Shown in pieces: positions 29,125 through 30,101 of a DNA stretch of 64,000 nucleotides. This DNA is from Candidatus Zixiibacteriota bacterium. Its GTDB lineage: Bacteria; RBG-13-66-14; B26-G2; WVWN01. The position numbers were made by a program, and so were the translations under genes. The stretch is taken from assembly GCA_011773985.1 (NCBI GenBank), contig WVWN01000062.1, positions 1-64,000 of the forward strand, in the 5' to 3' direction. The notes beneath the pieces were generated by a model. It made no database searches. It was not told where the DNA came from and worked only from the letters and a program-made list of their open reading frames with translations. How positions within the stretch are numbered: position 1 is the stretch's first letter; every line of letters begins with the position of its first letter.

Positions 29125-29294
29125 GGGATTTTGGGATAAAAGGGCCTGGAATATTTAAATTAATTCGTACATTTTTCACTTGTATTTTGGGTTAAAATGT
29201 GGTAGGTATTTAATTAGGGAATAAGGGTTCAATGTGGTAATAACGTGTGGTTTACCGGAAGACGAATAATATTAAACTAAGGAGGTGAAGCAAT

Positions 29295-30053
29295 TTGCGT
29301 TATTTTGCCGTATTGTTGGCTCTGGCGCTGATCGTCCCGGCGGCGCTTGCGCAGAACCTCCAGCAAGCGTATAACGCGGCGCCGGCGGGAGAGGGGTACG
29401 ACAAGCTTCTGGTCCTCGACCCGAAAGTGACGTACACCGGCGGCTGCGCGGTAATACAAGGAAAGAAATCTTGCATCCGCGGCAACGGCGCGCTCTGCAA
29501 CCTTGACGGAGGCAATATCTTCGTAACCCAACCCCGTACCGTCCTCGACATTACGGGGTGTTGCGTGTACGACGGCGGTTATTCGGGCGCCATCTACGTC
29601 GCGGACGAGGCCAGCGCCAATGTCGACGGAAACACGATTTGTAAAAGCGGGCTCGGTATCTACGTCTGGGCGTACTCCTCGGCCACGGTCAAGAACAACA
29701 TCATTTTCGACAACAATAAGGCAAGCTGCTACAATTACGGGATAGCCAAGCATCAATACACGACCTCGTTAAATGTCCTATACAACGACGTAGATCGGCA
29801 CAACGGCGGGAACTACATGTACTTCTGCCCGGGTTGAGGCGGCGGCTCGTGGAAGGTTTTCTTCCCATCACCAGGTACTGGTGAGATTCACGCCGATCCT
29901 CTGTTCAAAGACTATAAAAACAACGACTACGAGCTGACTGAGAAGTCGCCGTGCAGGGGCGCGGGCGAGGGCGGCAAAGATATGGGCGGAAGGCAGTACA
30001 AGACGGGTATAGCCCCGACGTCCATGGGCCGCATCAAAGCGTTGTTCCAATAG
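29295..30053 (+). CDS. Exported cysteine-rich beta-helix protein with in-frame TGA (Sec candidate or nonsense mutation)
   Basis: Translation from TTG 29295, after a perfect GGAGGTG at 29281-29287, gives a signal peptide ending in PAALAQ. A right-handed beta-helix-type region follows with turns such as GCCVYDGG and SSATVKNNIIFDNNKA. TGA 29835-29837 stops the frame after YFCPG. The same frame then stays open for 71 codons to TAG 30051-30053 and reads GTGEIHADPLFKDYKNNDYE and EKSPCRGAG, which is the standard ending of this protein family. The full product would be about 252 residues. C-P-G-TGA would make a CxxU motif. Hairpins follow the TGA at 29851-29865 and 29868-29884. A selenoprotein, a nonsense mutation or a base error are all possible. 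Composition is less GC-rich than its neighbours. Confidence 0.7.
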
Positions 30054-30076: not shown

Positions 30077-30101
30077 AAAGAGGGCGTAAGCCCTCTTTTT
30101 C
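30077..30101 (+). terminator. Rho-independent terminator after the beta-helix gene
   Basis: The stem AAGAGGGC / GCCCTCTT with loop GTAA-like bases is followed by five T residues. Its position 24 bases after TAG 30053, and not after TGA 29835, fits transcription through the whole reading frame. Confidence 0.88.

Follow-up and report, generated by a model that had tools for sequence, protein, structure and literature searches.

Most known selenoproteins have cysteine (Cys) homologues and adopt thioredoxin-like or other redox-enzyme folds. The known CxxU selenoproteins, which include GrdA, SELENOW-like and AhpD-like proteins and the TonB-dependent receptor of the FCYXU type (PMC13188914 Table 1), share with the family reported here an in-frame UGA decoded through SelB and a SECIS element, as well as a Cys three residues before selenocysteine (Sec). 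They differ from it in fold and family, none of them being a beta-helix, and the present family appears to be a new one without a known Cys counterpart. The 2026 catalogue lists 119 prokaryotic selenoprotein families, and the tables of the 2022 and 2026 catalogues (PMC9312934, PMC13188914) contain no beta-helix entry. No selenoprotein model in NCBIfam 20.0 matches the family, and we found no report of a beta-helix selenoprotein family in the open-access literature. We therefore regard it as quite likely that the family is a new, uncatalogued one. All defining features that can be judged from sequence were found, and we place it with the SelB/SECIS-decoded bacterial selenoproteins.

On the side of the fold, the repeat proteins of Pfam Beta_helix (PF13229) and NosD (PF05048) share right-handed beta-helix coils with our protein. 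Set against these proteins, which, to our knowledge, are read without Sec, the family is distinguished by its GYDK N-terminal cap and its CxxU loop. The copper-handling protein NosD (TIGR04247; PDB 7o0y, 7osf) is an extracytoplasmic beta-helix too and gives weak matches; our protein scores 17.9 bits against the TIGR04247 cut-off of 300, and no nos genes were seen beside its gene.

The gene and its in-frame TGA codon

The gene lies on the forward strand of the window, the whole stretch of 64,000 nucleotides that was analysed, and, translated with its TGA read through, would encode a selenoprotein of 252 residues including Sec181, from a TTG start to a TAG stop (29295..30053, +). A ribosome binding site, AGGAGGTGA (29280..29288, +), is located 6 nt upstream of the TTG, and the frame opens with a signal-peptide-like segment, MRYFAVLLALALIVPAALA (29295..29351, +), both read directly from the sequence. 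The hydrophobic start is kept across the family in the alignment, and the structure model renders residues 2-13 as a low-confidence helix. The sole in-frame TGA of the gene (29835..29837, +), taken as the codon of Sec181, stands in the context F-C-P-G-TGA-G-G-G. The codon of Cys178, the partner in C-x-x-U (29826..29828, +), is invariant in alignments A1 and A2, and C178 and U181 are both invariant in the first alignment. The 71 sense codons behind the TGA (29838-30050, +) would encode the last beta-helix coils and a C-terminal tail, as judged from dN/dS and conserved residues, before the TAG (30051-30053, +). The initial annotation had described an open frame of this length past the TGA, the sequence ADPLF...SPC near its end, a C-P-G-TGA context giving a CxxU motif and a terminator behind the second stop. 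The frame and its ending recur in the sequence and translation, and the motif is present and conserved in most relatives. The terminator, GAGGGC-GTAA-GCCCTC-TTTTTT (30080..30101, +), was read by eye 3' of the TAG and is absent from the terminator-scan listing. The C-terminal tail, APTSMGRIKALFQ (30012..30050, +), possibly serves sorting or anchoring in a lineage-specific manner, as it recurs at the end of unrelated proteins of the genome. A tail like PTSLGRVKAL(F/Y) closes both this protein and several unrelated, exported-looking ones (L046 near 3951, minus strand; L005 near 571 and 1500; L020 near 9913), and a similar one occurs in G004.

Comparison with relatives revealed a TGA at the equivalent position in 62/62 full-length members examined, drawn from about six bacterial lineages: 12 from the window's Coatesbacteria-like order, 30 from Marinimicrobia, 17 from Zixibacteria, one from TA06 and two from Phycisphaerales/Glo_17, with L028 left out of the count as its gene ends at a contig edge before the Sec site. 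Cys, Trp, Arg or Gly occupied this position in none of the 62. Close to the window, three genomes of the same genus yielded nine homologues (59-73% identity) and one of the same order yielded two (42-43% identity), all of them with exactly one in-frame TGA; no paralogue of the gene was found in its own genome. A scan of genome contigs recovered members in candidate division TA06, Zixibacteria, Neomarinimicrobiota, FCB bins, a Phycisphaerales bin and 'Glo_17', all of them with the TGA at the equivalent place. Within Marinimicrobia, 30 of 245 genomes hold a full-length member (E <= 4e-57), each with one TGA, and the next matches (E >= 3e-16) are generic beta-helix repeats that are stop-free; the same two classes were observed in Zixibacteria. 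In a tree of the 62 members, Marinimicrobia and Zixibacteria each form a single clade, which suggests that the family was inherited mainly by vertical descent. Phage records gave no match. Conservation of the TGA on this scale lies far beyond chance. Additionally, the downstream 71 codons compared with five same-genus homologues gave dN of 0.20-0.29 and dS of 1.05-1.83, that is, a dN/dS of about 0.1-0.24, the signature expected of a sequence that evolves as protein under purifying selection.

A nonsense mutation or sequencing error, leaving a pseudogene with a relic frame behind the TGA, is usually what a single in-frame stop in one draft contig turns out to be, and the window's hairpins alone are unremarkable, but the TGA in 61 other members from independent assemblies and the purifying selection on the downstream frame leave this reading, once proposed as the simple alternative, a negligible chance, and we reject it. 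The initial annotation had also expected Cys in homologues at the TGA and had counted homologues without it against Sec; this criterion is inapplicable as worded because the homologues carry TGA itself, with no full-length Cys orthologue among them.

Sec machinery and the hairpin behind the TGA

The genome was found to contain selA, selB, selC and selD, the four genes by which the initial annotation had proposed to judge the case. SelA is matched at E = 2e-106, SelB is present including its C-terminal domain, tRNA-Sec with the anticodon TCA scores 64.3 bits, and SelD is encoded on L176 from about base 1085 (G000:C43:73084-73961) with a run of N in mid-gene. A frameshift in this selD was considered and rejected, the apparent break between the two halves being that run of N. 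The SelD is itself a selenoprotein, with a TGA in its AAGUAAK site. SelB exceeded the cut-off in 10 of 11 other genomes reached via distant relatives, a count that includes the genome of L028, whose family gene ends before the Sec site; SelD did so in 13 of 15 carrier genomes, and the genome of L022, a 1.1 Mb partial bin, fell short for both. In the search table, the selB of one Marinimicrobia genome (L081, G017:C62:2467-4323) shows one in-frame TAA. Two same-class genomes possess SelB and tRNA-Sec and lack the beta-helix family gene, and thus Sec use does not require the family.

Bacterial SECIS elements have been modelled as hairpins whose loop, 3-9 nt long and situated 16-37 nt from the UGA, has a G as its first or second base, with a published stem threshold of -7.5 kcal/mol (PMC13188914). 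The candidate SECIS hairpin of the window, GGAAG-GTTTT-CTTCC (29851..29865, +), with its apical loop (29856-29860) 18 nt behind the TGA, fits this model in place and loop, its stem of -4.5 kcal/mol being weaker than the threshold; set against synonymous recodings of the same peptide, it is not significant alone (p = 0.44). A second hairpin follows, TCACCAG-GTA-CTGGTGA (29868..29884, +), which becomes the window's best when placing is left free (p = 0.31 against synonymous recodings). This one could either stack on the SECIS or be no more than a by-product of the PGTG codons, and the conserved PGTG peptide explains it at least partly. The initial annotation had reported two perfect hairpins roughly where SECIS elements lie. 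Both exist, the second with 7 bp and a 3-nt loop rather than 6 bp and a 5-nt loop; the position of the first gains support from covariation in the family, whereas the second is not conserved here in most members.

Across the family, a hairpin with a G(U) loop starting 15-20 nt behind the UGA was present in 42 of 47 members tested (in L009 very weakly), examples being GGAGAG-AGUU-CUCUCC (L021), GACUCC-GUU-GGAGUU (L109) and the strongest of them, GGGCAGA-GUG-UCUGCCU (L106). The top four stem pairs form in 43-46 of 46 members, as GC and AT pairs in both orientations. In 29 Marinimicrobia sequences, 88% of stem cells were paired vs 69% in shuffles and 33 cells were changed on both sides vs 12 in shuffles, with a covariation score reached by 0/500 shuffles and a lower score in every slid control. 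Hybrid hairpins built from two members averaged -1.5 vs -7.1 kcal/mol. When the place was fixed, comparison with synonymous recodings yielded a combined p of 6e-13 for 26 non-redundant members, a value that involves related members and a restriction to +15 to +20 chosen after inspecting the family; with the loop position left free (16-37 nt), the single-gene p values were weak (median 0.17). For these two reasons, the relatedness of the members and the later choice of the place, the covariation test is better evidence than the fixed-place p value, and it is the comparison across the family that makes the first hairpin of the window significant.

An open frame on either side of the TGA is also what one would expect if TGA were a sense codon (Trp or Gly) genome-wide or were read through by an ordinary tRNA. 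However, TGA closes 10 of the 29 open frames in the window that exceed 350 codons and for that reason is otherwise an ordinary stop in this genome, a tRNA-Sec is present along with the whole Sec pathway, and the covarying hairpin behind the codon would be left unexplained. Code reassignment and ordinary readthrough were rejected on these grounds, their probability being very slight. The machinery, the TGA-carrying homologues and the covarying SECIS together support the CxxU selenoprotein first suspected here, and TGA 29835 is very probably decoded as Sec.

Fold, export and the role of selenocysteine

The protein scores 27.8 bits against the Pfam Beta_helix (PF13229) cut-off of 25.9, and an AlphaFold2 model depicts a short beta-helix (mean pLDDT 88.8) in which the CxxU loop lies between strands 172-178 and 185-188, near the last coils; score and modelled fold both assign it to the right-handed beta-helix superfamily. 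A PDB fold search returned no match at E <= 0.001 and a PDB sequence search only weak ones, to NosD, AlgG and an adhesin, and these searches point to no substrate. T9SS type A sorting domains form the C-terminus of Zixibacteria members, with a TIGR04183 domain in L022 and L026, and Marinimicrobia members terminate in dockerin-like repeats that score slightly below the Pfam cut-off. Because many relatives carry these domains, the family is taken as exported, with Sec acting outside the cytoplasm; for the window protein, on which no TIGR04183 Por_Secre_tail or other sorting domain was recognised, the same would hold by extension. The gene adjoins the ATP synthase operon both in the window and in the relative G001, which has three tandem copies of it. 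In G004 (L178 2976-8069), selB, an ornithine aminotransferase-like gene and two family genes occur in a row.

In the proposed mechanism, the ribosome reads UGA 29835 as Sec, with SelB bringing tRNA-Sec to the SECIS hairpin just behind the codon, as the comparative evidence shows. The 252-residue product would consist of a signal peptide and a predicted short right-handed beta-helix, with Sec181 in a loop before the last coils and Cys178 three residues ahead, a pair that could form a selenenylsulfide. Such a protein would act outside the cytoplasm and probably at the cell surface, and it would most likely carry out a selenol/thiol redox reaction or one that binds metal(loid)s, where Cys would be insufficient. 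On the basis of the C-x-x-U motif and export, we consider this role as an extracytoplasmic redox or metal(loid) site reasonably probable.

Cys homologues are usual for selenoproteins without being a defining feature, and no full-length Cys orthologue was found in 14 genomes of the window's own phylum, 245 of Marinimicrobia and 133 of Zixibacteria or in one genome-contig scan; every full-length match carried TGA, and the hits after these were generic beta-helix repeats. Among 35 distant local matches, 4 place a Cys opposite the Sec, in ambiguous alignments. This want of a Cys orthologue is unusual for a selenoprotein, yet compatible with Sec. Three TGA-free beta-helix neighbours (L145, L167, L168) share the family's C-terminal coils (YNDVWNN...PGTGEI..DPLFVDP...SPC) and have T9SS-like tails, but lack the TGA and the GYDK cap, and their loop, GYSG, contains no Cys or Sec, in contrast to the CxxU loop of the family. 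The partner residue is more mobile than Sec itself. Most members read C-x-x-U, L033 reads C-x-x-x-U, one L169 gene C-x-U and L143 C-U, and in L175 the partner Cys is missing, with Sec retained throughout; the C178 equivalent is variable or absent in part of the Zixibacteria set. Two in-frame TGAs occur in L030 (6001-8067), which reads FLUEYGU where its nearest relative, L033, reads FLCDYGU, a Cys-Sec swap at the partner site that also favours the Sec reading.

The persistence of Sec while its partner shifts or disappears, and the placing of the UGA, in every member, ahead of a sorting domain or C-terminal tail, would also suit a selenium-gated switch in which Sec chemistry is secondary. Without selenium, translation would stop at residue 180, the last coils and sorting tail would be lost and nothing would be displayed, and with selenium the protein would be complete and sorted. 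Nevertheless, any selenoprotein with a C-terminal tail shows the same order of parts, and the C-x-x-U kept in most members resembles redox sites, so a switch as the main function seems distinctly improbable. A purely structural part, in which a Cys178-Sec181 selenenylsulfide stiffens the exposed loop with no redox or metal role, would agree with a repeat-scaffold fold of the kind often used for binding or adhesion and with the modelled position of the loop beside the last coils. A Cys-Cys pair would do equally well, yet no Cys form was found, and some members lack the partner Cys altogether, which makes this part for Sec unlikely. The evidence leans slightly toward an old, surface-exported beta-helix family in which Sec is obligatory, given the lack of a Cys form in about six lineages and the movable partner Cys. 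If this is true, selenium-dependent chemistry takes place on a fold from which Sec is not known. Truncation of such proteins at the Sec codon by gene callers that treat TGA as a stop would account for the family having been overlooked. A Sec-only exported beta-helix family spread across several candidate phyla would widen the known usage of selenium and offer a clean case for asking why certain sites demand Sec.
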